64,000 bases of DNA from contig CM055895.1 in assembly GCA_029582155.1 (NCBI GenBank), positions 17,288,787 to 17,352,786 of the forward strand. The letters are read 5' to 3'. The position numbers and the translations under genes are program-made. Below the pieces are notes generated by a model. It was not told the DNA's origin, made no database searches, and was given only the letters and a program-made list of their open reading frames with translations. How positions within the stretch are numbered: the first letter of the stretch is position 1; the number at the start of each line of letters is the position of its first letter. Positions 3,293-34,000 of the stretch are shown in pieces. This stretch comes from Panopea generosa (Eukaryota > Mollusca > Bivalvia > Adapedonta > Hiatellidae).

Positions 3293-3296
3293 AACA

Positions 3297-3420: not shown

Positions 3421-3473
3421 GGTAATAATACTAACTACAGCACCTTGGACCAATGACATATTCACATGCTGTT

Positions 3474-3825: not shown

Positions 3826-3837
3826 AAGCTAAACATT

Positions 3838-6036: not shown

Positions 6037-6038
<2 letters not shown>
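4783..6038 (+). mobile_element. mariner (Tc1/mariner, DD34D-type) transposon, near full length, decayed
   Basis: Terminal inverted repeats ATTCAAAAAGTTTTGAGACT at about 4792-4811 and the partner AGTCTCAAAACTAATTGAAT at 6013-6032. Transposase pieces in order are VCAWWVPHLLT (5268-5300), TGDETWIYYFEPQK (first catalytic D, 5392-5430), LINDNTSAHKS (second D, about 5661-5695) and PPCSPDLSPFHFFLFP (third D, about 5736-5788). The pieces fall in more than one frame, so at least two frameshifts separate them and the copy is inactive. Confidence 0.85.

Positions 6039-6072
<34 letters not shown>
6039..6072. repeat. (AT)n microsatellite
   Basis: About fifteen AT dinucleotides directly at the right end of the mariner copy. 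The TA-rich target may have been the insertion site. Confidence 0.85.
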
Positions 6073-6074
<2 letters not shown>

Positions 6075-6191
6075 GTGTCAATTTATATAAATTTTGAGGA
6101 GAGCTACCCAATTTATTAGAATTGCTAAGAATTCCATTGTAAGTATAAATACTCCTTGTATACCTGTGTAATTATTTTGTTGTTGTTGCAG

Positions 6192-6246
6192 GAAATGCAT
6201 GACTACATGGTGTCTGTCGAGGACATATATGAGAAGATGTCGAACG
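6192..6246 (+). CDS. PIK3AP1: PIK3AP1-like exon a (YEKM motif)
   Basis: The acceptor is TTGTTGTTGCAG followed by a reading frame EMHDYMVSVEDIYEKMSNG. The motif Y-E-K-M (6228-6239) fits the p85 SH2 consensus YxxM. The chosen donor is ACG|GTAAAC, phase 1. A second donor at 6279, AAG|GTTTGT, would add eleven residues and keep the same phase, so the exon end is uncertain. The frame at the acceptor is phase 0. The preceding exon, which should encode the end of the ankyrin/DBB region, was not found upstream. Confidence 0.65.
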
Positions 6247-6900
6247 GTAAACAATTACAATACTGCAACAATCTTGAAGGTTTGTACTGAATTTGTTTGA
6301 GCACATGTTTTTATTTATATTTCTCACATAGTTCAATGACATTTCATCAACATTTCAATGTAATTTTGACCAAATCTTTCAGTGAAATTTCACTGAAATG
6401 CCAGTTTAATTACACAGAAAGATTGGTGAGATTTCAGTGAAATTTCACTGGTATTTAGTAAAATTTCAATGAGATCTTGCAGAAATCTCACCAAAATTTG
6501 ACCAGGGCACTTAACCATAGTTTGGTCTCAGGGTCCTAAACCATAGTTTGGCATCAGTTAGGTCTTAGGGCACTAAACCATAGTTAGGTCTTAGGGCACT
6601 GAACCATAGTTAGGTATTCTGGCCCTTACCCATAGTTAGGTCTTAGGGCACTTAGAACAACAGTTAGGTCTTAGGGCACTAAACCATAGTTAGGACTTAG
6701 GGCACTGAACCATAGTTGGGTATCTTGGCCCTAACCTTTAGTTAGGTCTTAGGGTATTAAAATGACAGTTTGGTTTTAGGGCACTAAACCATAGTTAAGT
6801 CTTAGGGCACTGAACCATAGTTAGGTCTTAGGGCACTGAACCATAGTTAGGTATTAGGGCCTTAACCCATAGTTAGGTCTTAGGGCACTAAACACACACA

Positions 6901-6984
<84 letters not shown>

Positions 6985-6985
6985 C

Positions 6986-7025
<40 letters not shown>

Positions 7026-10000
7026 GTATATTGTTTGTATCTTAATGTCATCCAACTTCTTGGAAAAAACTAATATATATACTAATTTTGCATTTTCTGT
7101 AAATCTTTTGTTTCGGGAATCCTTGACACTTTTGTTGACCACAGATAGCTTCAGTTCTACTCTAGTAGTTTTAACCAGTTAAAGTTTTATAACAATCAGG
7201 GAAGTGGTATGTTGTGGAATAGGTTGTACATAACTTATGAATAAAAATATGTTTAAACCAACTCCACTTGTTAATTCCACTTGTTAATTCCACTTGTTGA
7301 TTCCACTTGTTAATTTCATTTGTTAACTCCACTTATTAATTCCACTTGTTAAACATTTATTAATTTCACTTTTAATTCAACTTGTTGATTCCACTTGTTT
7401 ATTTCGCTTGTTAACTCCACTTGTTGATTCCACTTGTTAATTTCACCTGTTAACTCCACTTATAAATTCCACTTGTTAATTCCACTTATTAATTTCACTT
7501 TTAATTCAACTTGTTGATTCCACTTGTTAGTTTCACCTGTTAACTCCACTTATTAATTCCACTTGTTAATTCCACTTATTAATTTCATTTTTAATTCAAC
7601 TTGTTGATATAACTTGTTTATTTCACTTGTTAACTCCACTTGTTAATTCCACTTGTTAATTCCACTTGTTAATTCAACTTGTTGATTCCACTTGTTAATT
7701 CAACTTGTTGATTCCACTTGTTAATTTCACCTGTTAATTCCACTTATTAATTCCACTTGTTAATTCCACTTATTAATTTCACTTTTAATTCAACTTGTTG
7801 ATATAATTTGTTTATTTCACTTGTTAACTCCACTTGTTAATTCAACTTGTTGATTCCACTTGTTATTTCACTTGTTAACTCCACTTGTTAATTTCCAAAA
7901 TGGAAGAAATATAATATAAACTGTTCACTCTGTTTTGTTCTGTTCAAAGGTACGAAAGGTTACATGGCAATGGGTGGAGGAGACAGAGTGGAGGACTATA
8001 CAGAAGCTCGTATAACTGCTGAAGAAGATGATTATGAAATAAAGGTTCCAAACAAGTTTGTAGAAGAGGTTGAGGAAGTACTCTCTGATGAGGACATTAC
8101 TGCACCAGGTAAACAAGTTCATGCCCACAGTACCCATGCTGCTTTATCATATGTGTATAAATAATCAACCCCAGGAACTTTAAGTTACATAGAATTAATA
8201 AACAGATTAATTTATACTAATTTGTTTTAGCTGTATTTTGAAGAAAGCTATAAGCTTATATGAACTGCTCTCAAGTCAACTTCCTGGCTGTAATGAGTAC
8301 TGAGTGGTGCATTGGATTGAGCCAGGAATTGAACCAGCAACCTCTAGCTTGGGTGACCAATAACCCTTCAAAATTTGCACTCCCTTTGATCTTTACACTC
8401 AGGTTAAAGAGTTTAAATTTTTAGGAATAATAACTGAAACTTTGTTTTGAAAATGCTTAAAAAATAAACATTGGAATCCATTTTGTTCCAGACGAAAGGG
8501 TCACATAGAGAAGAATTTGTTCTCAATATTGCACAGTGTTATGTTGGGGCAAAGTTAATAATCCAGAAATACATGTAACTTACAAGTTCTGACCCAGTTT
8601 TGATTTTGTCATAAAACATTGTGAAGGGATAAATGACTGTAATAACAATCAGTATTCCATTAAGGAGTGAGTGGTCCAGTGGTAGAGCATCTGCCCCATA
8701 ATTGGAGTGTCATAGGTTTGATCCTCTGCCACAGCTATGTGCAGGTGTCCTTGAGCAATACTTTTTCCACATGCGGTTAGTGCTGGTTCTATCCAGGAAG
8801 ACTTCAGGCCTAATTTGTCTAAGTTGAAATAACAGTAATTTGTTTCACATTCTATGTTATATAAATAAGTTTAAACTAATATTCTAATTACAAACCATGT
8901 AGATCCTGATTAGCCTATGAGTAACCACTAAATTTTGGTCTGATTACAGCCTGCTTTTTTTAAATTTCAAATCTAAATAAAAAACATGGTTTAAAAACAA
9001 AAATGGTATATTTCTTATGATATATATTTAGCAGTTATGCAATATAATATTATATAAAAAAAATTGTATTTCAAGTTTAGCAAACTCATTTTTTTTCTTT
9101 TTCTTCATTTAAAGATATTCCCAAAAAACCAGCCGTTGCAGTGAAGTCCAGAGTTTCTGCTGCGACTCCCCCACCAAGGCCTGCTACTAGTTCTGTTGTA
9201 TCTCCAACATCACATTCTCCAAGCTGTGCCAACCAGACCCAGGAGGACAAGAACCCCACCCCCAATACCTGAGGCAGAAGAAGATATATTTTTTAGTATG
9301 AATTTCACAGCACTTTTGATTGCTCTTTGTCACATCTTTCAAAAACAAAATTAATGATTATGACTTTTTCAAATAATCTATAGCCAAAATCAATGGTATG
9401 GTAAACTAATGTACAGATCATTTACAATATGTTGAACACAATTTAAATCCTAGCAGCATTAAAACTCAATATATATATACAAAACATGTTTATAACTTTA
9501 CACAAAACATGTCTTCAATTTATATATTAAAACATATCTACAACTTTACACTAAACATGTCTTCAATTTATATATTAAAACATGTCTACAACTTTACACT
9601 AAACATGTCTTCAATTTATATATTAAAACATGTCTACAACTTTATACACAAAACATGTCTTCAGTTTATATATACAAAACATGTCTACAACTTTATTCAC
9701 AAAACATGTCTTCAATTTATATATTGAAACATGTCTACAACTTTATACACAAAATGTGTTTTCAGTTTGTATATCAAAACATGTCTACAACTGTAAACAC
9801 AAAACATGTTTTCAGCTTGTATATCAAAACATGTCTACAACTTTATACACAAAACATGTTTCCAGTTTGTATATCAAAACATGTCTACAACTTAATACAC
9901 AATACATGTCTTCAGATTGTATATCAAAACATGTCTACAACTTTATACACAAAACATGTCTTCAATTTGTGTATCAAAACATGTCCACAACTTTATACAC

Positions 10001-13000
10001 AAAACATTTTTTCAATTTGTATATTATCTAGATCTATAAAGCAGAAATCCCTTTGTTTAAGTCTGAATACTGGCATTATAAGCCAGATATCCCTTTGTTT
10101 AAGTCTGAATACTGGCATTATAAGCCAGATATCGCTTTGTTTAAGTCTGAACACTGGCACTATAAGCCAGAGATCCCTTTGTTTAAGTCTGAACACTGGC
10201 ATTATAAGCCAGAGATCCCTTTGTTTAAGTCTGAATACTGGTATATAAGCCAGAGATCCCTTTGTTTAAGTCTGAATACTGGCATTATAAACCAGAGATC
10301 CCTTTATTTAAGTCTGAATACTGGCATTATAAGCCAGATATCCCTTTGTTTAAGTCTGAATACTGGCATTATAAGCCAGAGATCCCGTTGTTTAAGTCTG
10401 AACACTGGCATTATAATTCAGAGATCCCTTTGTTTAAGTCTGAATACTGGCATTATAAGCCAGAGATCCCTTTGTTTAAGTCTGAATACTGGCATTATAA
10501 TCCAGAGATCCCTTTGCTTAAGTCTGAACACTGGCACTATAAGCCAGAGATACCTTTGTTTAAGTCTGAATACTGGTATATAAGCCAGAGATCCTTTTGT
10601 TTAAGTCTGAATACTGGCATTATAAACCAGAGATCCTTTGTTTAAGTCTGAATACTGGCATTATAAGCCAGATATCGCTTTGTTTAAGTCTGAACACTGG
10701 CACTATAAGCCAGAGATCCCTTTGTTTAAGTCTGAACACTGGCATTATAAGCCAGAGATCCCTTTGTTTATGTCTGAACACTGGCACTATAAGCCAGAAA
10801 TTCCTTTGTTTAAGTCTGAACACTGGCACTATAAGCCAGAGATCCCTTTGTTTTAGTCTGAACACTGGCACTATAAGCCAGAGATTACTTTGTTTAAGTC
10901 TGAATACTGGCACTATTAGCCAGAGGTGCCTTTGTTTAAGATTGAATACTAGCACTATAAGCCAGAGATTCCTTTGTTTAAGTCTGAATACTGGCACTAT
11001 AAGCCAGAGATTCCTTTGTTTAAGTCTGAATACTGGCACTATAAGCCAGAGATTCCTTTGTTTAAGTCTGAATACTGGCACTATAAGCCAGAGATTCCTT
11101 TGTTTAAGTCTGAATACTGGCACTGTAAGCCAGAGATTCCTTTGTTTAAGACTGAATACTGGCACTATGAGCCAGAGATTTTGTTCAAGTCAGACTACAA
11201 CTATAACCTTGGTACCATGTTTTTTATAATCTGAATACTAGCGCTATAAGCCAGAGATCCCTTTGTTTAAGTCTGAACACTAGCACTATAAGCCAGATAT
11301 TTCTTCTGTGTATTGTAAGGTGATACTTATATCCTAAAGAGTTATATCTAACCTGTATAGCTTCATTCAACAACCACTTACTTTCATTGTACATGTATAT
11401 CAAAATTGCTAACAGGGTGGTGGAGAGAAATGGGTGTAACGCTGTTTGAATACATCACATGTCACATATCCAGCTTCCTCAGTGAAGACAGATGAATCTG
11501 GGTAGAGCCATCATACTTTAAAAGGTCACATAAAGTCTCTGGACCTAACTACAGGGCTCACAATAACAACTGTCACATATCCAGCTTCCTCGGTGAAGAC
11601 AAATGAATCTGTGTAGAGCCATCATACTTTTAAAGGTCACATAAAGTCTCTGGACCTAACTACAGGGCTCACAATAACAACTGTCACATATCCAGCTTCC
11701 TCGGTGAAGACAAATGAATCTGTGTAGAGCCATCATACTTTTAAAGGTCACATAAAGTCTCTGGACCTAACTACAGGGCTCACAATAATGCTTTCAATGG
11801 TGAGAAGCAATATCGTCTTATAACATTATTCCTACCTGCCATGAAGTGTCTTAAAAGAATTAAAAAAAACCCACCATATTCATGCATGACAATGGTTCTT
11901 CTTCACTTATAACTTCAGATGTAATACCCCCAATACCAGGGACCACAGGCTGCTCAGGCTATTGATGAGTTGTCCCAGATACAAAATTCTTACAAACAAA
12001 ACGAGTTTGACCTAGACGACATAGAGATGCTGTTCCGTGCATGGCAGGACAGAAATCGTGATGGACAATCACCATCTATGAAGGAACGTAAGGTATGACG
12101 TGAAGACAGTGTACAGTCAGATCTGTATGAGCGGTCACCTCTATTTAACAGCCACTTGTCTTAAGCAGCCACATTTGCTCTTTCCCATTTATATGCTTTC
12201 AGTGCAAATTAACCTGTATTAAGCAACAACCTGTCTTAAAAGGCCACTTTTGCTCCTTCCCTTGAGTGGCTGCTTAAAACAGGTTTGACTGTATATTATG
12301 GTGACGTTTTTTAATCAGAGACATATAACAGCATGATGTTTTCCGCCGTATGAGAAACGGTGTTGTGTAATGCCGTGTTTTCTTTAGTGTTTCAGCATAG
12401 TGGTATAATTTAGTGGTAGAACAGTGGTTTTACTCAATTTTCAGATTCCTTCTGAGGTTTCCCCCGCACCATTAATAAAAGTGGATGTAACAATACAGTC
12501 TGTAATGTTGAAAAGGACAATAAACCACATTAGAAATAATTGTCTTCTGTCATATAAGAACATGTTGTCATTTGGTATTTTTCTTATACATGTTGCATAT
12601 TTTAACATAGTGGTATAATAAGTTTTGCACTTACTTTGTGTAATAAAGGAGGGGTGAAGCAGTTTTGCACTTATTTTGTGTATTTCAAGAGCAGCGAAGC
12701 AGTTTTGCACTTACTTTGTGTATTTCAAGAGCAGCTAATCAGTTTTGCACTTACTTTGTGTATTTCAGGAGCAGCGAATCAGTTTTGCACTTACTTTGTG
12801 TATTTCAGGAGCAGCGAGTCAGTTTTGCAGTTACTTCGTGTATTTCAGGAGCAGCAAATCAGTTTTGCAGTTACTTTTTGTATTTCAGGAGAAGTGAGTC
12901 AGTTTTGCAGTTACTTTGTATATTTCAGGAGCAGCGAGTCAGTTTTGCAGTTACTTCATGTATTTCAGGAGCAGCAAATCATTTTGCAGTTACTTTGTGT

Positions 13001-16000
13001 ATTTCAGGAGAAGCGAGTCAGTTTTGCAGTTACTTTGTATATTTCAGGAGCAGTGAGACAGTTTTGCAGTTACTTTTTGTATTTCAGGAACATTGAGTTA
13101 GTTTTGCAGTTACTTTATGTATTTCAGGAACAGTGAGTCAGTTTTGCACTTATTTTTTGTATTTCAGGAGCAATTAGTCAGATTTGCACTTACTTTGTGT
13201 ATTTCAGAAGCAGTGAGTCAGTTTCACAGTAACTTTGTGTATTTCAGGAGCAGTGAGTCAGTTTTGCAGTTACTTTTTGTATTTCAGGAGCAGTGAGTCA
13301 GTTTTACAGTTACATCATGTATTTCAGGAGCAGTGAGTCAGTTTTGCAGTTACTTTGTGTAATTCAGGAGCAGTGAGTCAGTTTTGCAGTTACTTTTTGT
13401 ATTTCAGGAGCAGTGAGTCAGTTTGACAGTTTAGTCATGTATTTCAGGAGCAAGTGAGTCAGTTTTGCAGTTACTTTTTGTATTTCAGGAACAGTGAGTC
13501 AGTTTTACAGTTATGTCATGTATTTCAGGAGCAGTGAGTCAGTTTTGCACTTACTTTTTGTATTTCAGGAACAGTGACTGAGTCAGTTTTACAGTTACGT
13601 CATGTATTTCAGGAGCAGTGAGTCAGTTTTGCACTTACTTTTTGTATTTCAGGAACAGTGAGTCAGTTTTACAGTTACGTCACGTATTTCTGGAGCAGTG
13701 AGTCAGTTTTGCCATTAGTTTTTGTATTTTAGGAACAGTGTGTCAGTTTTACAGTTACATCATGTATTTCAGGAGCAGTGAGTCAATTTTGCAGTTACTT
13801 TTTGTATTTCAGGAGCAGTGAGTCAGTTTTACAGTTATGTCATGTATTTCAGGAGCAGTGAGTCAGTTTTGCAGTTACTTTTTGTATTTCAGGAACAGTG
13901 AGTCAGTTTTACAGTTACATCATGTATTTCAGGAGCAGTGAGTCAGTTTTGCAGTTACTTTTTGTATTTTAGGAACAGTGAGTCAGTTTTACAGTTACGT
14001 CATGTATTTCAGGAGCAATGAGTCAGTTTTGCAGATACTTTTTGTATTTCAGGAGCAGTGAGTCAGTTTTACAGTTACATCATGTACTTCAGGAGCAGTG
14101 AGTCAGTTTTGCAGTTACTATGTGTATTTCAGGAGCAGTGAGTCAGTTTTACACTTACTTTTTGTATTTCAGGAGCAATGAGTAAGTTTTACAGTTACAT
14201 CATGTATTTCAGGAGCAGTGAGTCAGTTTTGCAGTTACTTTTTGTATTTCAGGAACAGTGAGTCAGTTTTACAGTTACGTCATGTATTTCAGGAGCAATG
14301 AGTCAGTTTTGCAGTTACTTTTTGTTTTTTAGGAACAGTGAGTCAGTTTTACAGTTATGTCATGTATTTCAGGAGCAGTGAGTCAGTTTTGCAGTTACTT
14401 TTTGTATTTCAGGAGCAGTGAGTCAGTTTTACAGTTACATCATGTATTTCAGGAGCAGTGAGTCAGTTTTGCAGTTACTTTGTGTATTTCAGGAGCAGTG
14501 AGTCAGTTTTGCACTTACTTTTTGTATTTCAGGAGCAGTGAGTCAGTTTTACAGTTATGTCATGTATTTCAGGAGCAGTGAGTCAATTTTGCACTTACTT
14601 TTTGTTCTTCAGGAACAGTGAGTCAGTTTTACAGTTACGTCATGTATTTCAGGAGCAGTGAATCAGTTTTGCAGTTATTTTTTGAATTTCAGGAACAGTG
14701 AGTTAGTTTTACAGTTACATCATGTATTTCAGGAGCATTGAGTCAGTTTTGCAGATTACTTTTTGTATTTCAGGAACAGCGAGTCAGTTTTACAGTTACG
14801 TCATGTATCTCAGGAGGAATGAGTCAGTTTTGCAGTTACTTTTTGTATTTCATGAACAGTGAGTCAGTTTTACAGTTACGTCATGTAATTCAGGAGCAGT
14901 GAGTCAGTTTTGCAGTTACTTTTTGTATTTCAGGAACAGTGAGTCAGTTTTAAAGTTACATCATGTATTTCAGGAGCAGTGAGTCAGTTTTGCACTTACT
15001 TTTTGTATTTCAGGAACAGTGAGTCAGTTTAACAGTTACGTCATGTATCTCAGGAGCAGTGAGTCAGTTTTGCAGTTACTTTTTGTATTTTAGGAGCACC
15101 TACAACAAGTGAAGGATAATTATCAGAAGGTGCTACAAAGTGCAGAAAAAGATCGGAAGAAAAAAGGTTTCTTTTCCAGACTTACGAGTAAGAAGAGAGA
15201 AAAACCTCAGTTAGCTATACAGGTACAATCCCTAATAGAGCTCAGTAACAACTTGATCACTATCTACTCTAGTAAAACCTCAGTTATCTTTACAGGTACA
15301 ATCCCTAATAGAGTTCAGTAGCAACTTGATCACTATCTACTCTAGTAAAACCTCAGTTAGCATTACAGGTACAATCACTAATAGAGTTGAGTAAAAACTT
15401 GATCACTATCTACCCTAGTAAAACCTCAGTTAGATATACAGGTACAATCCCTAATAGAGTTCAGTAACAACTTGATCACTATCTACTCTAGTAAAACCTC
15501 AGTTAGCTTTACAGGTACAATCCCTAATAGAGTTCAGTAGCAACTTGATCAATATCTACTCTAGTAAAACCTCAGTTAGCTTTACAGGTACAATCCCTAA
15601 TAGAGTTAAGAAACAACTTGATCACTATCTACTCTAGTAAAACCTCAGTTAGCTTTACAGGTACAATTCCAAATAGAGTTCAATAGCAACGTGATCACTA
15701 TCTACTCTAGTAAAACCTTACAGGTACAATCCCTAATAGAGTTCAGTAACAACTTGATCACTATCTATTCTAGTAGAACCTCAGTTAGCTATACAGGTAC
15801 AATCCCTAATAGAGTTCAGTAACAACTTGATCACTTTCCACTCTAGTAAAACCTCAGTTAGCTATACAGGTACAATCCCTAATAGAGTTCAGTAACGACT
15901 TGATCACTATCTACTCTAGTAGAAATTTTGTTAGCTATACAGGTACAATCCCTAATATAGTTAAGTAACAACTTGATCACTTTCCACTCTAGGAGAACCT

Positions 16001-19000
16001 CAGTTAGCTATACAAGTACAATCCCTAATAGAGTTAAGTAACAACTTGATCACTATCTACTCTAGTAGAACCTCAGTTAGCTATACAGGTACAATCCCTA
16101 ATAGAGTTCAGTAACAACTTGATCACTTTCTACTCTAGTAGAACCTCAGTTAGCTATACAGGTACAATCCCTAATAGAGTTCAGTAACAACTTGATTACT
16201 AACTATTCTAGTAGAACTTTAGTTAGCTATACAGGTACAATCCCTAATAGAGTTCAGTAACAACTTGATCACTATCTACTCTAGTAGAACCTCAGTTAGC
16301 TATACAGGTATAATCCCTAATAGAGTTCAGTAACAACTTGATCACTTCCTACTCTAGTAGAACCTCAGTTAGCTATACAGGTACAATCCCTAATAGAGTT
16401 CAGTAACAACTTGATCACTTTCCACTCTAGTAAAACCTCAGTTAGCTATACAGGTACAATTCCTAATAGAGTTCAGTAACAACTTGATCACTATCTACTC
16501 TAGTAGAACTTAAGTTAGCTATACAGGTACAATCCCTAATAGAGTTCAGTAACAACTTGATCACTATCTACTCTAGTAAAACCTCAGTTAGCTTTACAGG
16601 TACAATCCCTAATAGAGTTCAGTAACAACTTGATCACTATCTACTCTAGTAGAACTTTAGTTAGCTATACAGGTACAATCCCTTATAGAGTTAAGTAACA
16701 ACTTGATCACTTTCGACTCTAGTAGAACCTCAGTTAGCTTTACAGGTACAATCCTAAATAGAGTTCAGTAACAACTTGATCACTTTCTACTCTAGTAAAA
16801 CCTCAGTTAGCTATACAGGTACAATCACTAATAGAGTTCAGTGTCAACTTGATCACTATCTACTATAGTAGAACCTCAGTTAGCTATACAGGTACAATTC
16901 CTAATAGAGTTCAGTAACAACTTGATCACTATCTACTCTAGTAGAACCTCAGTTAGCTATACAGGTACAATCCCTAATAGAGTTCAGTTACAACTTGATC
17001 ATTATCTACTCTAGTAGAACCTCAGTTAGCTATACAGGTACAATCCCTAATAGAGTTAAGTAACAACTTGATCACTATCTACTATAGTAGAACCTCAGTT
17101 ATCTATACAGGTACAATCCCTAATAGAGTTCAGTAACAACTTGATCACTATCTACACTAGAAGAACCTCAGTTAGCTATACAGGTACAATCCCTTATAGA
17201 GTTAAGTAACAACTTGATCAGTATCATTTCTAGAAGAACCTCAGTTAGATATACAGGTACAATCCCTAATAGAGTTCAGTAACAACTTGATCACTATCTA
17301 CTCTAGTAGAACCTCAGTAAGCTATACAGGTACAATCCCTAATAGAGTTAAGTAACAACTTGATCACTATCTACTATATTAATACCTCAGTTATTTATTC
17401 AGGTACAATCCCTAATAGAGTTCAGTAACAACTTGATCACTATCTACTCTAGTAAAACCTCAGTTAGCTTTACAGGTACAATCCCTTATAGAGTTCAGTA
17501 ACAACTTGATCACTATCTACTCTAGTAGAACCTCAGTTAGCTATACAGGTACAATCCCTAATAGAGTTCAGTAACAACTTGATCACTATGTACTGTAGTA
17601 GAACCTCAGTTAGCTGTACAGGTACAATCCCTAATAGAGTTCAGTAACAACTTGATCACTTTCTACTCTAGTAGAACCTCCGTTAGCTTTACAGGTACAA
17701 TCCCTAATAGAGTTCAGTAACAACTTGATCACTTCCTACTGTAGTAGAACCTCAGTTAGCTATACAGGTACAATCACTAATAGAGTTCAGTAACAACTTG
17801 ATCCCTATCAACTCTAGTAAAACCTCATTTAGCTTTACAGGTACAATCCCTAATAGAGTTTAGTAACAACTTGATCACTATCTACTCTAGTAGAACCTCA
17901 GTTATCTATACAGGTACAATTCCTAATAGAGTTCAGTAACAACTTGATCACTATCTGCTCTAGTAGAACCTCAGTTAGCTATAGAGGTACAATCCCTAAT
18001 AGAGTTCAGTAACAACTTGATCACTTTCCACTCTAGTAAAACCTCAGTTAGCTATACAGGTACAATCCCTAATAGAGTTCAGTAACAACTTGATCACTAT
18101 CTACTCTAGTAGAACTTAAGTTAGCTATACAGGTACAATCCCTAATAGAGTTCAGTTACAACTTGATCATTATCTACTCTAGTAGAACCTCAGTTAGCTA
18201 TACAGGTACAATCCCTAATAGAGTTAAGTAACAACTTGATCACTATCTACTATAGTAGAACCTCAGTTATCTATACAGGTACAATCCCTAATAGAGTTCA
18301 GTAACAACTTGATCACTATCTACACTAGAAGAACCTCAGTTAGCTATACAGGTACAATCCCTTATAGAGTTAAGTAACAACTTGATCAGTATCATTTCTA
18401 GAAGAACCTCAGTTAGATATACAGGTACAATCCCTAATAGAGTTCAGTAACAACTTGATCACTATCTACTCTAGTAGAACCTCAGTAAGCTATACAGGTA
18501 CAATCCCTAATAGAGTTAAGTAACAACTTGATCACTATCTACTATATTAATACCTCAGTTATTTATTCAGGTACAATCCCTAATAGAGTTCAGTAACAAC
18601 TTGATCACTATCTACTCTAGTAAAACCTCAGTTAGCTTTACAGGTACAATCCCTTATAGAGTTCATTAACAACTTGATCACTATCTACTCTAGTAGAACC
18701 TCAGTTAGCTATACAGGTACAATCCCTAATAGAGTTCAGTAACAACTTGATCACTATGTACTGTAGTAGAACCTCAGTTAGCTGTACAGGTACAATCCCT
18801 AATAGAGTTCAGTAACAACTTGATCACTTTCTACTCTAGTAGAACCTCCGTTAGCTTTACAGGTACAATCCCTAATAGAGTTCAGTAACAACTTGATCAC
18901 TTCCTACTGTAGTAGAACCTCAGTTAGCTATACAGGTACAATCACTAATAGAGTTCAGTAACAACTTGATCCCTATCAACTCTAGTAAAACCTCATTTAG

Positions 19001-22000
19001 CTTTACAGGTACAATCCCTAATAGAGTTTAGTAACAACTTGATCACTATCTACTCTAGTAGAACCTCAGTTATCTATACAGGTACAATTCCTAATAGAGT
19101 TCAGTAACAACTTGATCACTATCTGCTCTAGTAGAACCTCAGTTAGCTATAGAGGTACAATCCCTAATAGAGTTCAGTAACAACTTGATCACTTTCCACT
19201 CTAGTAAAACCTCAGTTAGCTATACAGGTACAATCCCTAATAGAGTTCAGTAACAACTTGATCACTATCTACTCTAGTAGAACTTAAGTTAGCTATACAG
19301 GTACAATCCCTAATAGAGTTAAGTAACAATTTGATCACTATCTACTCTAGTAAAACCTCAGTTAGCTTTACAGGTACAATCCCTAATAGAGTTCAGTAAC
19401 AACTTGATCACTATCTACTCTAATAGAACTTTAGTTAGCTATACAGGTACACTCCCTAATAGAGTTAAGTAACAACTTGATCACTTTCTACTCTAGTAGA
19501 ACCTCAGTTAGCTATACAGGTACAATCTTTAATAGAGTTCAGTAACAACTTGATCACTTTCTACTCTAGTAAAACCTCAGTTAGCTATACAGGTACAATC
19601 ACTAATAGAGTTCAGTAACAATTTGATCACTATCTACTATAGTAGAACCCCAGTTAGCTATACAGGTACAATCCCTAATAGAATTCAGTAACAACTTGAT
19701 CACTATCTACTCTAGTAGAACCTCAGTTAGCTATACAGGTACAATCCCTAATAGAGTTCAGTAACAACTTGATCACTATCTACTCTAGTAGAACCTCAGT
19801 TAGCTATACAGGTACAATCCCTAATAGAGTTAAGTAACAACTTGATCAGTATCATTTCTAGTAGAACCTCAGTTAGATATACAGGTACAATCCCTAATAG
19901 AGTTCAGTAATAACTTGTTCATTATCTACTCTAGTAGAACCTCAGTTAGCTATACAGGTACAATCCCTAATAGAGTTAAGTAACAACTTGATCACTATCT
20001 ACTATAGTAGAACCTCAGTTATCTATACAGGTACAATCCCTAATAGAGTTCAGTAACAACTTGATCACTATCTACTCTAGTAAAACCTCAGTTAGCTTTA
20101 CAGGTACAATCCCTAATAGAGTTAAAAAACAACTTGATCACTATCTACTCTAGTAAAACTTCAGTTAGCTTTACAGGTACAATCCCAAATAGCGTTCAGT
20201 AGCAACGTGATCACTATCTACTCTAGTAAAACCTTACAGGTACAATCCCTAATAGAGTTAAGTAACAACTTGATCACTTTCCACTCTAGTAAAACCTCAG
20301 TTAGCTATACAGGTACAATCCCTAATAGAGTTCAGTAACAACTTGATCACTATCTACTCTAGTAGAAATTTTGTTAGCTATACAGGTACAATCCCTAATA
20401 TAGTTAAGTAACAACTTGATCACTTTCCACTCTAGGAGAACCTCAGTTAGCTATACAGGTACAATCCCTAATAGAGTTAAGTAACAACTTGATCACTATC
20501 TACTCTAGTAACACCTCAGTTAGCTATACAGGTACAATCCCTAATAGAGTTCAGTAACAACTTGATCACTTTCTACTCTAGTAGAACCTCAGTTAGCTAT
20601 ACAGGTACAATCCCTAATAGAGTTCAGTAACAACTTGATTACTATCTATTCTAGTAGAACTTTAGTTAGCTATACAGGTACAATCCCTAATAGAGTTCAG
20701 TAACAACTTGACCACTATCTACTCTAGTAGAACCTCAGTTAGCTTTACAGGTACAATCCTTAATAGAGTTCAGTAACAACTTGATCACTTTCCACTCTAG
20801 TAAAACCTCAGTTAGCTATACAGGTACAATCCCTAATAGAGTTCAGTAACAACTTGATCACTATCTTCTCTAGTAGAAATTTTGTTAGCTATACAGGTAC
20901 AATCCCTAATATAGTTAAGTAACAACTTGATCACTTTCCACTCTAGGAGAACCTCAGTTAGCTATACAGGTACAATCCCTAATAGAGTTAAGTAACAACT
21001 TGATCACTATCTACTCTAGTAGAACCTCAGTTAGCTATACAGGTACAATCCCTAATAGAGTTCAGTAACAACTTGATCACTTTCTACTCTAGTAGAACCT
21101 CAGTTAGCTATACAGGTACAATCCCTAATAGAGTTCAGTAACAACTTGATTACTATCTATTCTAGTAGAACTTTAGTTAGCTATACAGGTACAATCCCTA
21201 ATAGAGTTCAGTAACAACTTGATCACTATCTACTCTAGTAGAACCTCAGTTAACTATACAGGTATAATCCCTAATAGAGTTCAGTAACAACTTGATCACT
21301 TCCTACTCTAGTAGAACCTCAGTTAGCTATACAGGTACAATCCCTAATAGAGTTCAGTAACAACTTGATCACTTTCCACTCTAGTAAAACCTCAGTTAGC
21401 TATACAGGTACAATTCCTAATAGAGTTCAGTAACAACTTGATCACTATCTACTCTAGTAGAACTTAAGTTAGCTATACAGGTACAATCCCTAATAGAGTT
21501 CAGTAACAACTTGATCACTATCTACTCTAGTAAAACCTCAGTTAGCTTTACAGGTACAATCCCTAATAGAGTTCAGTAACAACTTGATCATTATCTACTC
21601 TAGTAGAACTTTAGTTAGCTATACAGGTACAATCCCTTATAGAGTTAAGTAACAACTTGATCACTTTCGACTCTAGTAGAACCTCAGTTAGCTTTACAGG
21701 TACAATCCTTAATAGAGTTCAGTAACAACTTGATCACTTTCTACTCTAGTAAAACCTCAGTTATCTATACAGGTACAATCACTAATAGAGTTCAGTGTCA
21801 ACTTGATCACTATCTACTATAGTAGAACCTCAGTTAGCTATACAGGTACAATTCCTAATAGAGTTCAGTAACAACTTGATCACTATCTACTCTAGTAGAA
21901 CCTCAGTTAGCTATACAGGTACAATCCCTAATAGAGTTCAGTTACAACTTGATCATTATCTACTCTAGTAGAACCTCAGTTAGCTATACAGGTACAATCC

Positions 22001-25000
22001 CTAATAGAGTTAAGTAACAACTTGATCACTATCTACTATAGTAGAACCTCAGTTATCTATACAGGTACAATCCCTAATAGAGTTCAGTAACAACTTGATC
22101 ACTATCTACACTAGAAGAACCTCAGTTAGCTATACAGGTACAATCCCTTATAGAGTTAAGTAACAACTTGATCAGTATCATTTCTAGAAGAACCTCAGTT
22201 AGATATACAGGTACAATCCGTAATAGAGTTCAGTAACAACTTGATCACTACTCTAGTAGAACCTCAGTAAGCTATACAGGTACAATCCCTAATAGAGTTA
22301 AGTAACAACTTGATCACTATCTACTATATTAAAACCTCAGTTAGATATACAGGTACAATCCCTAATAGAGTTCAGTAACAACTTGATCACAATCTACTCT
22401 AGTAAAACCTCAGTTAGCTTTACAGGTACAATCCCTTATAGAGTTCAGTAACAACTTGATCACTATCTACTCTAGTAGAACCTCAGTTAGCTATACAGGT
22501 ACAATCCCTAATAGAGTTCAGTAACAACTTGATCACTATTTACTGTAGTAGAACCTCAGTTAGCTGTACAGGTACAATCCCTAATAGAGTTCAGTAACAA
22601 CTTGATCACTTTCTACTCTAGTAGAACCTCAGTTAGCTTTAAAGGTACAATCCCTAATAGAGTTCAGTAACAACTTGATCACTTCCTACTGTAGTAGAAC
22701 CTCAGTTAGCTATACAGGTACAATCCCTAATAGAGTTCAGTAACAACTTGATCCCTATCTACTCTAGTAAAACCTCATTTAGCTTTACAGGTACAATCCC
22801 TAATAGAGTTTAGTAACAACTTGATCACTATCTACTCTAGTAGAACCTCAGTTATCTATACAGGTACATTCCCTAATAGAGTTCAGTAACAACTTGATCA
22901 CTATATACTCTAGTAGAACCTCAGTTAGCTATAGAGGTACAATCCCTAATAGAGTTCAGTAACAACTTGATCACTTTCCACTCTAGTAAAACCTCAGTTA
23001 GCTATACAGGTACAATCCCTAATAGAGTTCAGTAACAACTTGATCAGTATCTACTCTAGTAGAACTTAAGTTAGCTATACAGGTACAATCCCTAATAGAG
23101 TTAAGTAACAATTTGATCACTATCTACTCTAGTAAAACCTCAGTTAGCTTTACAGGTACAATCCCTAATAGAGTTCAGTAACAACTTGATCACTATCTAC
23201 TCTAATAGAACTTTAGTTAGCTATACAGGTACACTCCCTAATAGAGTTAAGTAACAACTTGATCACTTTCTACTCTAGTAGAACCTCAGTTAGCTATACA
23301 GGTACAATCTTTAATAGAGTTCAGTAACAACTTGATCACTTTCTACTCTAGTAAAACCTCAGTTAGCTATACAGGTACAATCACTAATAGAGTTCAGTAA
23401 CAACTTGATCACTATCTACTATAGTAGAACCCCAGTTAGCTATACAGGTACAATCTCTAATAGAATTCAGTAACAACTTGATCACTATCTACTCTAGTAG
23501 AACCTCAGTTAGCTATACAGGTACAATCCCTAATAGAGTTAAGTAACAACTTGATCACTATCTACTCAAGTAGAACCTCAGTTAGCTATACAGGTACAAT
23601 CCCTAATAGAGTTAAGTAACAACTTGATCAGTATCATTTCTAGTAGAACCTCAGTTAGATATACAGGTACAATCCCTAATAGAGTTCAGTAATAACTTGT
23701 TCATTATCTACTCTAGTAGAACCTCAGTTAGCTATACAGGTACAATCCCTAATAGAGTTAAGTAACAACTTGATCACTATCTACTATAGTAGAACCTCAG
23801 TTATCTATACAGGTACAATCTCTAATAGAGTTCAGTAACAACTTGATCACTATCTACTCTAGTAAAACCTCAGTTAGCTTTACAGGTACAATCCCTAATA
23901 GAGTTCAGTAACAACTTGATCACTATCTACTCTAGTAGAACTTAAGTTAGCTGTACAGGTACAATCCCTAATAGAGTTCAGTAACAACTTGATCACTTTC
24001 TACTCTAGTAGAACCTCAGTTAGCTTTACAGGTACAATCCCTAATAGAGTTCAGTAACAACTTGATCACTTCCTACTCTAGTAGAACTTCAGTTAGCTAT
24101 ACAGGTACAATCATTAATAGAGTTCAGTAACAACTTGATCACTATCTACTCTAGTAAAACCTCAGTTAGCTTTACAGGTACAATCCCTAATAGAGTTTAG
24201 TAACAACTTGATCACTATCTACTCTAGTAGAACCTCAGTTAGCTATACAGGTACAATCCCTAATAGAGTTCAGTAACAACTTGATCACTATCTTCTCTAG
24301 TAGAACCTCAATTAGCTATACAGGTAAAATCCCTAATAGAGTTCAGTAACAACTTGATCACTATCTACTATAGCAGAACCTCAGTTATCTATACAGGTAC
24401 AATCCCTAATAGAGTTCAGTAACAACTTGATCACTATCTACTCTAGAAGAACCTCAGTTAGCTTTACAGGTACAATCCCTAATAGAGTTCTGTAACAACT
24501 TGATCACTTTCTACTCTAGTAGAACCTCAGTTAGTTGTACAGGTACAATCCCTAATACAGTTCAGTAACAACTTGATCACTATCTACTCTAGTGGAACCT
24601 CAGTTATCTATACAGGTACAATCCCTAATAGAGTTCAGTAACAATTTGATCACTATCTTCTCTAGTAGAACCTCAATTAGCATTACAGGTACAATCCCTA
24701 ATAGAGTTCTGTAACAACTTGATCACTTTCTACTCTAGTAGAACCTCAGTTAGTTGTACAGGTACAATCCCTAATACAGTTCAGTAACAACTTGATCACT
24801 ATCTACTCTAGTGGAACCTCAGTTATCTATACAGGTACAATCCCTAATAGAGTTCAGTAACAACTTGATCACTATCTACTCTATTCCTCTGTTTGCTATA
24901 CAGCTACAATCCCTAATAGAGTTCAGTAACAATTTGATCACTATCTACTCTAGTAGAACCTCAGTTAGCTATACAGGTTCAATCCCAAATAGAGTTCAGT

Positions 25001-28000
25001 AACAACTTGGTCTCTATCTACTCTAGTAGAACCTCAGTTAGCTATACAGGTACAATCCCTAATAGAGTTCAGTAACAAATTGATCACTTTCTACTCTAGT
25101 AGAACCTCAGTTATCTATACAGGTACAATCCCTAATAGAGTTCAGTAACAACTTGATCACTATCTACTCTAGTAAAACCTCAGTTAGCTGTACAGGTTCA
25201 ATCACTAATAGAGTTCAGTAACAACTTGATCACTATCTACTCTAATAAAACCTCAGTTATCTATACAGGTACAATCCCTAATTGAGTTCAGTAACAACTT
25301 GATCACTATCTACTCTAGTAGATCCTCAGTTAGCTATACAAGTACAATCCCTAATAGAGTTCAGTAACAACTTGATCACTATCTACTCTAGTAAAACCTC
25401 AGTTATTTATACAGGTACAATCCCTAATAGAGTTCAGTAACAACTTGATCACTATCTACTCTAGTAGAATATCAGTTAGCTATACAAGTACAATCCCTAA
25501 TGGAGTTCAGTAACAACTTGATCACTATCTACTCTAGTAGAACCTCAGTTAGCTATACAGGTACATTCCCTAATAGAGTTCAGTAACAACTTGATCAGTA
25601 TCTACTCTAGTAGAACCTCAGTTACCTATACAGGTACAATCCCTAATAGAGTTCAGTAACAACTTGATCACTATCTACTCTAATAGAACATGGTCCTTTT
25701 TCGTACCTGAAATGGAAACATAATTAAAAGATAGAAATGACATCGCAATTGGAAAAAAGCTTGATTTGTTGATGGCAATTATCTGTGTCCAAATGGCAAG
25801 CTTAATACTTGCTCATGAGTAGTGTGGCAACATTTTAAATATACAAATGCATTTTGAACATCTGTTTTCAATAGTTTAGATGTTGTGTTTTATACCGGCT
25901 TGTTGTGACCTTGGCATAGTTGTTACAACGGGCCTTGTCATTGACAAGTAATAAAATAACAATTTTTCATTGACAAGTAATACAGTGCTGAATTGTCATT
26001 GATAAACAATAAAGAGTTGTTTTGTTATTGCCAAGTAATAAAGTAACAATTTGTCATTGAAGAGTAACAAAGTAACAATTTGTCATTGACAAGTAATAAT
26101 GTAACAATTTTCATTGACAAGTAATGAAGCAATGATTTGCCATTGTCCAGTGATAAACATAGTGTTGATTTGTCATTGGCATGTAATAAACTGTTAATTT
26201 GTCATCGACAAATAATAAAGTAATGACTTGTCATTGACAAATGAAAAAGTAACAATTTTCATTGATAAGTAGTAATACAAAGTGTTTGTTTGTCATTGAC
26301 AAATGATAAAGTAACAATTTTCAGGGATAAGTAGTAACACAAAGTGTTTGTTTGTCATTGACAAGTTGAAAACTATTGTTTTGTCATTGCCAATTAGTAA
26401 AGTGTTGGTGTGTCATTGACAATTAACAAAGTGTTGGTTTGTCATAGAGAAGTAATCATTTGCCATTGCCAATTAATAAAGTGTTGATTTGTCATTGACA
26501 AGTAATGAAGTAATGATGTTCATTTGACAAGTTATAAAGTAATGATTTATTATTGACAAATAATAACACAAAGTGTTTGTTTGTCATTGACAACTTATAA
26601 ATAAATGATTTGCCAATGCTAAGTGATAAAGTGTTGGTTTGTCATTGACAAGTAATAAAGTGTTGATTTGTCATTGACAAGGATTTGTCATTGACAAGTA
26701 ATTCGGTAATGATGTGCTTTTGACAAGTAATAAAGTAACAATTTATCATTGACAAGTAATAACACAAAGTGTTTGTTTGTCATTGAAAAGTAATTAAGCA
26801 ATGATTTGCTATTGACAAGTAAAAAAGTGTTGATTTGTCATTGACAAGTAAATAGAGTGTTGATTTGTCATTGACAAGGATTTGTCATTGACAAGTAATT
26901 CGGTAATGATGTGCTTTTGACAAGTAATAAAGTAACAATTTATCATTGACAAGTAATAACACAAAGTGTTTGTTTGTCATTGAAAAGTAATTAAGCAATG
27001 ATTTGCTATTGACAAGTAAAAAAGTGTTGATTTGTCATTGACAAGTAATAGATTGTTGATTTGAAATTGAAAAGTAATATTAAAAGTAATGATTTGTCAT
27101 TGACAATTAATAAGTTGTTTTGAAACTGACAAGTTATGAAAAAGAGTTGATTTATCATTGACAAGTAATAAAGGGTTTATTTGTCATTGACAAGTAATAT
27201 AAAATGTAAATGATTTGTCTTTGACATGTAATAAAAGGTTGATTTGAAATTGATAAGTAATAAAAAAGTGTTGATTTGTAATTAACAAGTAAAAAAGTGT
27301 TGATTTGTATTTGACAAGAAATAAAGTTTTGATTTGTCATTGACAGCATAATGTGGTGCCAAATAAGTATGAGAAATGGAACCCCGCGATGGACAGTCCA
27401 GATGGTGCTCAGGATTATCAGTATGGTTACACAAGGAATAGAGACAGCACTATCAGTACAACATCTACTGCCAGCACAGCAAGTAAGTTCTGTTTCCTTG
27501 TTTCAATATCAAGCATCTTTTTGATGAGCTAACAAATGATCAGTTAACCCGACCGCTCTTTCCTGGAATTTTGAATGGTTAACCCCTCTCCTGAAGTAAA
27601 TGATAACTTTCCCACTTGAAACAGTAGTGTGAGACAAATGACAATGAGATGCAATGTCAAAATCTATCATCACAGTGACTTGTGACCAGGATATGAACTC
27701 ACAACCCCTGGATTGATAGTCAAGATGTGCTACCCACTGAGCCAACCAAGTCCGGTTAGCAAGTAAGTCATGTATAGTTGCAATGTTTAGTTGTGAACGT
27801 ATTCCTTCTAGTTACTTTATTTTATATGGTCAATATTAGCTTCGATTAAACGATAAAACTATTAAAAAATTTATGTAGTTATTAAATTTTTCTTTACATA
27901 AGATGAAATAAGTTTTAGGCCATGGTTCAAGACCATAGATCTTTTATCACTAAGGGTTTTATTGTTTGTCCATGTTTTGACTTTGCCAAGATATTTAACA

Positions 28001-31000
28001 GGGAGAGCTTACTTAGTGTATACTGATTTATTATAGCTCGATTGCAATGAAAGCTCAGAGCTTATAGCAACCGCTCTCGAGTGCTTCCTGGGTTGAACTA
28101 GTACTGAGTGTTGTTTTATGAGAGGCATCGGGTCGATGCGGGGATCGAACCCACAACCTCTGGTGTGAGCGGCCAACACTCTATCCATTACTTGCCATAT
28201 TCTTTTGCAGAAATAAGGCATCTGCACATGCAGATGTTTTTATGATGAATATGTTGTCTTCAATCATCAGTGAAACAGACTCCTAGGCATGGTATACATG
28301 ATCATTTGTTGGAAATAAATAGTCACTGTCATTTAACCCTTTACTCCATATGCATTTTAAGTGGACTCTTCCAAATTCAAAGCCGCACATAGTCAATTTC
28401 CATGAATATATATACATTTTACCTATTTATTTTGATAGAGCAGAAAACAGTGTAGGATCTGTTCTGATTGCACTGTTTTCAAAAGCCTTCTATATTAGAG
28501 GTGTCCAAAGGCATCTATATTAGAGGTGTCCAAAGGCATCTATATGATGTAAAGGGTTAACTGTGTTTAGAATAGGTATCTGTTTTCAGTTGTTGTATGG
28601 TGTTTAGTGTCACTTTCAACATTTTTTAGTTATATCACAATGGTGTCTATTTGAGACAGTTTTTCTAAGCACTGCCACACTTGAGTTATAATCATGCTGC
28701 AGACACATGGTATATCATACCCCACCCAGTCTCATTATAATGACATACTGAAAAATTCAAAGGTCCATAACTGAGCATTCAACTAGAAAAATACTTATAA
28801 TTCCTATAAAATTTCATCAAATCTGATACAGAAGATGCATGTAGTTGAAGAAATGAAGAATGGGCAAGATTTGTATTTTGAAACATTCAAAGGATGATCA
28901 TAAGACTGAACATTTCAACCATATGCTTAACTAGACTTCATACTGATACTTCCTTATAGTATTTATAAAAGCTCCATAAAAATCTGATGAGCAACCAAGC
29001 AGAATAAAGTTTTAAAATATTGAAATAGGCTATAACTCACTTAAAAGTCATCCAACCTGAAAACTGCATTGATATAATGAGGGCTTGGTGCAAAACTGTT
29101 GTAACTAGGTTTTTGCAAATTGTTCAGGAGGAGGAAAAAATTGTTTTTTATTTTCTTCTTTAGATATTTTTGCTAATATTTTTCAAAATTCAAATGAAAA
29201 CTGCATTACTTACAATTTTAACAAGTGTTATCAATTAAAGCTTTAATATAACTTGATTTATTTGTAAAAGTTTGAATTACAATAGTGTTGCATTGAAAAT
29301 TCAATAAAACTGAATTTATATGTGGTGCAAAACTATTGTAACTCAAGTTACAATAGTTTTGCACCAAGTTTTATGAGATAAATAACTAATTTCTAAGTTT
29401 AAAAATATTATAACTCAATATAAAACTGATTAAAATTATGTTGTTATTACTCAAAAACTAATTTTAATTCTATTAAATGTTAACACAAACATATAAGAAG
29501 TATTGGAAATATAGAAAAACATATACAAAAGTATATTAAGCTGTATTATTTATGTTTTAGCCTATAAATACGATAATTTTGACAGTTATCGTGTTAACAA
29601 TCAATTAACCTATGTCATTAACACTGTTAAGCATAATATTTCAGTTATGAAAGTATTAGATTATGATAATATAAGTTAATATATATAATTATGTTTCCAA
29701 ATTCATATTTAGAAATTGATATTGTGTAAATTTATATAGTATGCAGATACTATCTGGACCACAGTATAATCGTAACTAACTGTCATGTTTAAGAATGTGA
29801 CATTATGATATTAATATACCAGTAAATATCAATCAAGATTTTAAAACTGTTGTTTTCAGTCTTATAAATTTATTGCAAATTTTTGCCTGGGGTGCAATAG
29901 GCAGTTGAGATCAAATTGCATACTACATGAATGTTTTGGTTAAAACCTTATTTTTAGACAAATAGGCAAAAAGATACCTGTGTTTTATTTAGTTAAAAAT
30001 TTGGAATAGTTATCGTTTAAATTTAAACAAGCGGTAAGTGGGTACTGTGCCCCATGGGCCTACTATACCATCATCACTAACAACTGCACCTTCAAAATCC
30101 ATCATGCCAAATTAATTAAACACCTTTCAGTCTTCATACATGTACCAACTCCATCACCGTGGTACTGTACCCTTTACACCCACCAAACTAACATCATTAT
30201 ACCCACTGTACCATATACAACCACCATACCAACATCATCACTTCCACACTCTACATCTAGTATACTAGCACCATTTTCAACTACATCCTTATCATCTGCC
30301 AAACAAAATCCATAAGACACTGATCCTTTATATTTATTACATGTATCGACTCTGTCACCATACCAACTCAACTATCCATAGTGACTGTACCTTCAACATC
30401 CACCATCCCAACCCCACTACCTATTGCATCCATTACATCCATCATACTGACCTAATTAACTACTGAACCATTACACCCACCAATCCAGTACCATTATCCA
30501 CTGTAACATCTACATTCACTCCAATGCTTCCTCTACATTACTCCATTATATAGGTACTGTTTTTTCACTACCATTAACTATAATACCAACCAGAACCTCA
30601 TTACTTACTGTACCCTCTACACCCACCATTTAGATTCAACTACACTGTACCTTCTACATCAACAATACCAACAGCTCTACCTGTGCCCTAAATATCCACC
30701 ATACCAACTTCGTTACTCACAATCCACATTATATCAACATCACTACCCACTGTGTTCACCATACCAACATCACTACCGTCTGTTTCATGGACACTACATC
30801 CACCGTACCATCTCAACTATTCACTGTTCCTTCTACATCCTCTATAATTCTTTACTAATTTCACTACTCACTACCCCTTTAATATCAACATCACTTCCCA
30901 TTGCAACCATTATATTCATTATACCAACACCACTACTCAATGTCCACTCTGCATCCACCATACCATTATAACTATTCACTGTACTTATTACATCCACTAT

Positions 31001-34000
31001 ACCATATCAACCATCTTTATCACTCATTGTTCCCTTTACACCCATAATACCAACTATACTACAAGCTGTACCCTATACAACCTCCATACCAACTACATTA
31101 CTAGCTTTAATATCAATACCCACCATACCAACTACACTACCAGCTGTACCCTTTATACTCACAATACCAACTACACTACTAGCTGTCCCCTTAATACCCA
31201 GAATACAAACTGCACTACTAGCTATACCAGCTATACCAGCTATACCCTCTATACTCACAATACCAACTACACTACCAGCTGTACCTTCTTCACTCACCAT
31301 ACCAACTATACTACCAGTCTACCCTCTATACTCACCATACTAACTACACTACCAGCTGCATCCTCTACACCCACCATACCAACTATACTACATGCTGTAC
31401 TGTTTATGCCACGAAATCATTTACACAACCAGATGTACCCTCTTCACACACAATACCAATACTGTACTGTATATACAACTACGATACCATCTACACTACC
31501 AGCTGTACTCTCTTTAACCACCATACCAACTACACTACCAGCTGTACTGTCTACACCCACAATACCAACTACACTACCAGCTGTACCCTCAACATCCACC
31601 ATACCAACTATGCTTCCAGTTGTAACATCCACACCCACCATACCAACTATGCATCCAGTTGTACCATCCACACCCCCTATACCGTCTATGCTACTCACCA
31701 TACCAACTACACTACCAGCTGTACCCGCTTCATCCATAATAGCAACTGCACTACCTGCTGTGCCTTCTACACTCACAACACCAACAATGCTACCAACTGT
31801 ACACTTTACACCCAACATACCAACTATACTACCTACAGTAACCTCTACCCCCACTATACCAACAACCCTACCAGCTGTACCCTCTACACCTACCATATCG
31901 ACTATGACTATACTACCAGCTCTCCTGTCTACACCCATGATACCATCTACACTACCAGCTGTACTCTCTTCACCTACCATACCTCTACACTACCAGCTGT
32001 ACCCTTAACACCAACAATACCAACTACATTACCAGCTGTACCCTCAACACTCACCATACCAACTATGCTACCAGTTGTACCATCCACACCCACCATACCA
32101 ACTATGTTACCTGTCATACCCTCTTCACCGACCATACCAACTACACTACCAGTTGTACTATCCACACCCACTATACCAACTATTCTACGAGCCATACCCT
32201 CTACACCCATCATACCAACTATGCTACCAGCTGTACATTTTACACCATCTATACCAACTATGCTACGAGCCATACCCTCTACACCCATCATACCAACTAT
32301 GCTACCAGCTGTACCTTTTACACCCACTATACCAACTATGCTATGAGCCATACCCTCTACACCCATCATACCAACTATGCTACCAGCTGTACCTTCTTCA
32401 CCCGACATACCAACTATGCTATGAGCTATACCCTCTACACCCATCATACCAACTATGCTACCAGCTGTACCTTCTACACCCACCATACCAACTATACTAC
32501 CAGCCACACCCTACACACCCACCATACCAACTATGCTACTTGCTGTACCTTCTACACCCATCATACCAACTATGCTACCAGCTGTACCTTCTACACCCTC
32601 CATACCAACTATACTACCAGCCACACCCTATACACCCATCATACCAACTATGCTACCAGCTGTACCTTCTACACCCACCATACCAACTATGCTACCAGCC
32701 ACACCCTATACACCCTACATACCAACTATGCTACGAGCCATACCCTCTACACCCATCATACCAACTACGTTACCAGTTGTACCTTCTTCACCCACTATAC
32801 CAACTATGCTACCAGCCACACCCTATACACCCACCACACCAACTATGCTACAAGCCATACCCTCTACACCCATTATACCAACTATGCTATGAGCCATACC
32901 TTCTTCACCCACTATACCAACTATGCTACCAGTTGTACCTTCTTCACCCACTATACCAACTATGCTACCAGCCACACCCTATACACCCACCATACCAACT
33001 ATGCTACGGGCCATACCCTCTACACCCATCATACCAACTACGTTACCAGTTGTACCTTCTTCACCCACTATACCAACTACGTTACCAGTTGTACCTTCTT
33101 CACCCACTATACCAACTATGCTACCAGCCACACTCTATACACCCACCATACCAACTATGTTACCTGTCATACCCTCTTCACCTACCATACCAACTACACT
33201 ACCAGCTGTACCCTCAACACCCACCATACCAACTATGCTACCTGGGTTGTACCCTCAACACCCACCATACCAACTATGCTACCAGTTGTACCCTCTACAC
33301 CCATTATACCCCTATACTACCAGCTGTACCGTCTAGACCCACAATACAATTTACAGTACCAGCTGTACCCTCTACATCCATCATACCAACTACACTACCA
33401 GTAGCTGCTGTACCCTCTAGATCCACTTCACCATCTCAACTATCAGCTGTACACTCTGTATCCACCATACCCCATACCAACCCCACTACCCACATTGTGC
33501 TTTATTCAATTGGTATAATTAAAAGTTAACTCTGAGAAACCAAGGTTTATAAATATCTAAAGTATATTGTTTTGGTTCTAAGTTAACAGCCATTTTAAAA
33601 TAATTAGATACATGTTGACTGATATATTAGTACTGATATATTAAGAAGAATAATACTGAGTGTACCAGGTCATATCTCATTCTTGAAGTATTCAAAAGGG
33701 ATATATTGGTTTGGTAAAGTTATAATTGGTATAAATTAAAAGTATGTTGAGTAATATTGTGAGATTGGACGGACTTTTTTATTAAAAAAAAAATGCAAAC
33801 CAAAAAATTCACTGTAAATTTTAATAATCAGATTTTTTAACAAAATATCAACAAATGGTTCTTTTATAGCACAATAACTATATTAATCATCCATTTTATT
33901 GTCACTAATGTCCAAATCAATAAAACATTTAAAATACTCATTTGACTAAAATTAGTTTTTTATCAAATTAAAATGTTTTTAAAAATTTAATTAAAAAAAA

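Follow-up and report, generated by a model that had tools for sequence, protein, structure and literature searches.

An exon flanked by two tandem arrays

The window analysed here is a 64,000-nucleotide stretch (C2:17288787-17352786) of a 1.47-Gb animal genome assembled in 39 contigs. It contains two genes whose best protein relatives are found in the clam Mactra antiquata, a BCAP/BANK-type gene and a gene for F-box only protein 39. The subject of this report is one exon of the BCAP/BANK-type gene, which we call E1, together with the tandem arrays that bracket it. An initial annotation of the window had placed two different arrays, with periods of 40 and 73 bp, on the two borders of this 129-nt exon, and Tandem Repeats Finder (TRF) confirmed both. 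A third array, absent from that annotation, lies immediately before the next exon (E2). The exons and arrays concerned are as follows.

12621 to 15098, + strand: 40-bp acceptor-side array (TRF: 61.8 copies, 84% matches)
15094 to 15222, + strand: E1, the bracketed exon, 129 nt, encoding EHLQQVKDNYQ...KPQLAIQ (open frame, splice consensus, alignment with Mactra P0001 and Papilio P0002)
15203 to 25689, + strand: 73-bp donor-side array (TRF: 144.0 copies, 91% matches)
25934 to 27345, + strand: 29/58-bp array before E2 (TRF), stopping 1 nt short of the E2 acceptor border
27347 to 27482, + strand: E2, the exon after E1, encoding HNVVPNKYEKW... (frame, homology)

E1 is open in phase 0 and is flanked by tattttag| and |gtacaa. 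The 40-bp array takes in the acceptor AG and the first five exon bases (GAGCA), and the 73-bp array starts, according to TRF, 20 nt upstream of the donor, with those exon bases and the GT repeated. The final 22 nt of E1 match the 73-bp array perfectly (score 44, against 20 for the best non-overlapping exon window), whereas for the first 22 nt the score with the 40-bp array is just 14, short of what control windows reach (up to 19), indicating that the repeated part of the 40-bp array is nearly all intron. The symmetric layout proposed for the two junctions of E1 therefore holds, but the extent of copying differs: it is substantial on the donor side, whereas on the acceptor side it amounts to no more than the AG and 5 nt. 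The AG is retained in 58 of 64 aligned rows of the 40-bp array and the GT in 143 of 146 aligned rows of the 73-bp array (two rows in each alignment are partial flanks). No copy of E2 was detected in the array that precedes it (exon score 15, equalled by 213/300 shuffles), and that array contains six broken acceptor decoys and no intact one.

In the middles of the arrays, mean unit identity to the consensus is 0.955 (73-bp) and 0.917 (40-bp). In the 73-bp array the ends are no more divergent than the middle; in the 40-bp array, identity falls to 0.78-0.85 at the far end, versus 0.917 in the middle. The 73-bp array also contains exact internal repeats, 600 bp or longer and offset by 1168 bp (16 units), which show recent block copying. 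The length of the arrays, together with a break in the frame of another exon of the same gene, might suggest that misassembly produced the repeat expansion, but the units differ from one another and many other genes hold similar arrays, making such an artefact highly improbable. Copy numbers may be wrong in a single assembly. The units of the 40-bp array are of two alternating types (best lag, 2 units), with the most divergent copies at the far end.

In the 3001-nt intron preceding E1, 2473 nt belong to the 40-bp array and 528 nt are free of arrays. Array growth explains the very long intron between E1 and E2, 11,879 of whose 12,124 nt belong to the 73-bp and 29/58-bp arrays, leaving 245 nt. 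The initial annotation considered two arrays stopping at the edges of one exon hard to attribute to chance, an argument that overlooks how the arrays themselves lengthened the introns: with so few array-free bases in each, it is not improbable that a repeat seed lands on a border. When 11 arrays were seeded uniformly over the array-free intron lengths of the gene (the 4-bp repeat of the first intron being excluded), 1.69 border-touching arrays were expected and 3 were seen, and at least 3 arose in 22% of trials (P = 0.22). In this gene alone, chance suffices.

Age of E1 and the surrounding genes

The encoded protein indicates the order in which exon and arrays would have arisen. At the joint of E1 and E2, the Mactra residues RPQMNIEHNVEPNKYE correspond to the window-encoded KPQLAIQHNVVPNKYE, and the alignment has no gap at the border. 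At the start of E1, KERKEHL in the window aligns with KERKKQM in Mactra and KEKQEQL in the butterfly protein (Papilio P0002), again with no gap at the border; the Papilio protein is gapped at the end of E1 and hence uninformative there. Because protein relatives align across the borders of E1 without a gap, E1 appears to be older than the arrays, and the exon bases repeated in the 73-bp array thus encode part of an older, continuous protein segment. Conversely, the arrays might have come first and then supplied splice sites and set the exon borders, given that the acceptor of E2 sits right where an array ends that shares no exon bases, with array-like sequence upstream, and that the acceptor AG of E1 is itself part of the 40-bp array. 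We consider this very unlikely, as there are no inserted residues at either border and the residues encoded by the 22 repeated nt are partly conserved in Mactra. As regards intron gain by tandem duplication, the protein is continuous with its relatives, and the arrays seem to have enlarged an intron that was already there.

The BCAP/BANK-type gene was identified by its similarity to Mactra P0001 (E 2.7e-41, 37% identity), and its relatives carry PF14545 (padded protein search). Nine exons were assigned on the + strand from frame, splice consensus and similarity, with splice sites placed by frame, consensus and homology. The remaining seven, and the neighbouring gene, are:

6192 to 6279 (or 6246), 7950 to 8108 and 9115 to 9295, + strand: exons 1-3 (frame, homology, predictor)
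11940 to 12092, + strand: exon before E1, encoding GPQAAQAIDELSQ...SMKERK (predictor start 11940; first reading 11919)
34708 to 34775, 36857 to 36907 and 39076 to 39263, + strand: last three exons, the end of the final one falling in a TAA stop
56947 to 58068, - strand: F-box only protein 39 gene, complete in a single open frame (match to P0004, 61% identity)

Two of these exons have defects. The frame of the third (9115-9295) shifts halfway and meets a TGA, and the + strand predictor makes no call there; the fourth contains a TAA if it starts at 11919. These defects may reflect sequence error, alternative splicing or a broken gene. The F-box gene gave the only Pfam match above the curated cut-off in the ranges scanned, which were three forward frames of 1-9401, 11290-12632, 27301-31002, 33400-35542 and 36240-44912, two forward frames of 52630-62851, and the reverse frames of 56900-58102. 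An Rfam search gave no match. Other large minisatellites in the window, at 9466-11297, 31028-33401, 47856-52629 and 62851-64000 (units of 50/42, 39, 33 and 49 bp, respectively), make no contact with any exon found.

Array edges at exon borders in a wider sample

The same genome was sampled at loci with Pfam matches to the myosin head, kinesin motor and tyrosine phosphatase domains (the best 30 each of 81, 126 and 170 matches), giving 90 loci and 290,901 bases, 7.6% of which are occupied by arrays. Of 134 exons placed by homology, a codon-plus-splice predictor found 129; its calls numbered 246 on the gene strand versus 24 on the opposite strand. Of 236 predicted exons that passed the threshold and lay away from the locus ends, 199 remained by genomic position and 173 (346 borders) were kept after four lying mostly within arrays were dropped and near-identical paralogs were merged. 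Arrays cross 12 of the 346 borders, and four more stop 3-7 nt away.

Crossed donors: L043, L030, L009, L084, L027, L050, L013
Crossed acceptors: L074, L031, L004, L017, L026
Arrays stopping 3-7 nt from a border: L065, L025, L023, L037

Homology supports eight of the 16 array-bearing exons (for L017, via the overlapping locus L014), and the peptides of the other eight were judged by eye to be members of the sampled families. These data suggest that border-crossing repeats are common in this genome. As in E1, whose own bases are contained in the 73-bp unit, the sampled crossing arrays carry the border of their own gene. An introner or other dispersed intron-creating element would place copies of a single element at many unrelated intron positions. 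None of the 173 exons has arrays at both borders, where 0.2-0.4 would be expected if borders were independent; by extrapolation from the measured rates, both borders would be crossed in about 0.12% of exons, or ~240 in an assumed 200,000. In L086 and L090 (C3 near 29577864-29578428), a tyrosine-phosphatase exon and its flanks are tandemly repeated with a 197-bp unit, and a second array of this sort is suggested by matches at C3:30225280, 30225482 and 30225676.

Exon borders might alternatively be a true hot spot at which tandem duplications arise, owing for instance to DNA damage linked to transcription or splicing, or to some property of the border sequence; the arrays would then be no different in kind, but their positions would be non-random. 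Edge density varied with distance from the border: 0.20 edges per kb at -80..-41 (2 edges), 0.77 at -40..-3 (10) and 0.89 at -2..+10 (4), then none at +11..+50 at the main setting, 0.29-0.37 at 51-400, and 0.17-0.19 beyond. The zone from -40 to +10 thus holds 14 edges against 4.0-5.6 expected, a ratio of 2.5-3.5 (p 0.006 to 0.0002, depending on the reference zone), and the empty stretch at +11..+50 also counts in favour of a hot spot. Across ten settings the ratio of border to intron edge density was 2.3-4.0 (p 0.05 to 0.0001), whereas comparison of the wider zone -40..+50 with 51-400 gave a ratio of only 1.38 (p 0.19) and no clear excess. The genome-wide excess to which the initial annotation had looked is therefore seen, on this 173-exon sample, in most settings and not in the wider zone.

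Several features of the sample temper this result. Border edges are few and the p values are nominal across settings; the predictor may favour exons with spare splice sites; and 8 of the 14 border-zone edges come from the 108 homology-supported exons (same threshold) and 6 from the other 65. With homology-supported exons alone, the excess persists, but the count falls to 8 edges versus 2.7-3.6 expected (p 0.01-0.05). Moreover, the edges of crossing arrays are scattered 5-69 nt within exons rather than fixed at the junction, and none of the 16 sampled edges falls at position 0, the nearest being at 3 nt. This scatter argues against cutting at the splice site, e.g. by reverse splicing; the E2 array edge, 1 nt from the border, is an exception that is accounted for only as chance. 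Consequently, the suggestion that duplications are started at exon borders survives insofar as edges are denser there than in introns, but not as a start at the exact border.

Genome-wide, triple donor words at unit-like spacing outnumbered the reversed word (1755 versus 515 and 730 versus 311), even though AAGGTAAGT as a single word occurs less often than its reverse (22901 versus 29573). A small number of long arrays and a single dispersed 51-bp repeat dominate the triple counts among the matches listed, so these counts lend the hot spot weak support. Among those matches, the 51-bp tandem repeat carries the consensus donor word AAGGTAAGT and occurs at several places on C1. Also on C1, at 56270862-56298303, triples of CAGGTAAGT occur at multiples of ~58 bp over 27 kb, apparently in one very long array.

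Overall, a surplus of array edges at borders, by a factor of two to three, is likely but not established. That borders are a true hot spot seems to us possible, with the odds somewhat against it; its consequence, that splice-border minisatellites occur on thousands of exons, several times more often than in introns, with arrays at both borders in hundreds of them, is to be held just as tentatively. If it is true, this genome offers a natural experiment on how the spliceosome picks one among dozens of equivalent sites.

Splice-site choice and comparison with known border repeats

With a donor weight matrix trained on the 173 exons, 132 of 142 intact donor decoys in the 73-bp array score at least as high as the donor used by E1, and 24 of 47 intact acceptor decoys in the 40-bp array equal or exceed its acceptor. 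Of the 12 crossing arrays in the sample, nine hold at least one decoy that scores as high as the used site. With so many equal-scoring decoys, site strength alone does not explain use of the outermost copy. Unit length is divisible by 3 in 4 of 14 crossing arrays, giving no sign of frame-keeping selection.

Our data suggest that the arrays are probably exon-border minisatellites of the kind called mirages in lancelets, arising by ordinary duplication across borders and tolerated since only the outermost copy would be spliced. A short segment at or across an exon/intron border would have been tandemly duplicated by ordinary slippage or unequal exchange; judging from unit content, duplication across the border is well based for the 73-bp array and less so for the 40-bp array. 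The copies lie piled up on the intron side, the exact repeats pointing to recent block copying, and introns of a few hundred array-free bases would thereby have grown to 3 kb and 12 kb. The copy touching the exon would remain the splice site, as frame and homology indicate, and the inner copies would go unused, since they add sequence and, 40 and 73 not being multiples of 3, shift the frame. Exon definition probably picks the site: judging from the unit sequences, a normal 129-nt exon would be bracketed by the innermost acceptor and donor alone, whereas the array units would offer exons of only about 5 and 23 nt.

The near-complete retention of GT among the decoy donors could alternatively mean that the repeated sites are kept by selection, tuning exon use or acting as spares. 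Such a role is highly improbable, as units are mostly not multiples of 3 and recent block copying accounts for the high similarity between copies; the arrays probably have no function in splicing. Nor is a special force needed to hold a functional site at the array edge, as had been proposed, because, once a segment spanning a border has been duplicated, splicing at any copy but the outermost would alter the exon.

Four points weigh against the mirage interpretation. Use of the outermost splice sites is itself predicted, from reading frame and homology. The 40-bp array, with five exon bases, and the E2 array, with none, may be explained equally well by a seed beside the border. Purely uniform seeding would not be expected to yield the surplus of border edges seen in most settings. 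Finally, in L009, L084 and L004 no decoy reaches the used site, and site strength may help there.

If a few percent of borders in this genome carry mirages, they would provide a direct test of whether borders attract duplication, and of whether exon definition or strength governs the choice of a site among up to ~144 near-identical copies.

Repeated splice sites in minisatellites have precedents in human genes. The human interferon-induced gene 6-16 (IFI6) reportedly contains a minisatellite with multiple splice donor sites. The donor site is repeated within the minisatellite there as in the 73-bp array; judging from the title of that report, the extra donors serve a transcript, whereas here the frame argues against use of inner sites. 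Tandem repeats at exon-intron borders have also been described in human segmental duplications, where, in the available text of the report, border repeats alter gene structure, as they do here, but novel introns are proposed (PMC2812944); in the BCAP/BANK-type gene an existing intron appears to have grown. Our literature search, which did not cover most subscription journals, found no border minisatellites in bivalves and no genome-wide count.

The initial annotation knew of no described class of element with this layout, but mirages, i.e. tandem duplications of intron/exon borders in genes, had already been described in lancelets (PMC3087553, PMC3902484). According to the available parts of these two reports, they are known from a few genes, namely Adh3, the globins BflGb6 and BflGb9, and troponin C and PGBD5 (the last two added by PMC3902484), and have units of 10-160 bp; undisturbed regular mRNA splicing and length instability between alleles or tissues would also be expected of the class. 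The arrays at E1 resemble them, as far as those descriptions go, in that tandem units span a border (either one) and carry splice signals while the exon is otherwise normal. The 73-bp units span the border with 22 exon nt and the GT, the 40-bp units do so weakly, with 5 nt, and both retain their splice dinucleotides in most rows; the E2 array has neither exon sequence nor intact acceptors. Exact internal repeats in the 73-bp array hint at recent expansion. The E1 locus differs from the lancelet cases in its host, an animal with clams as its best protein relatives, and, again going by the available text, in having arrays on both borders with far more units (6 and 3 in the globin). To a class already known from lancelets, it would thus add a case in which both borders of one exon are repeated, with up to 144 units.

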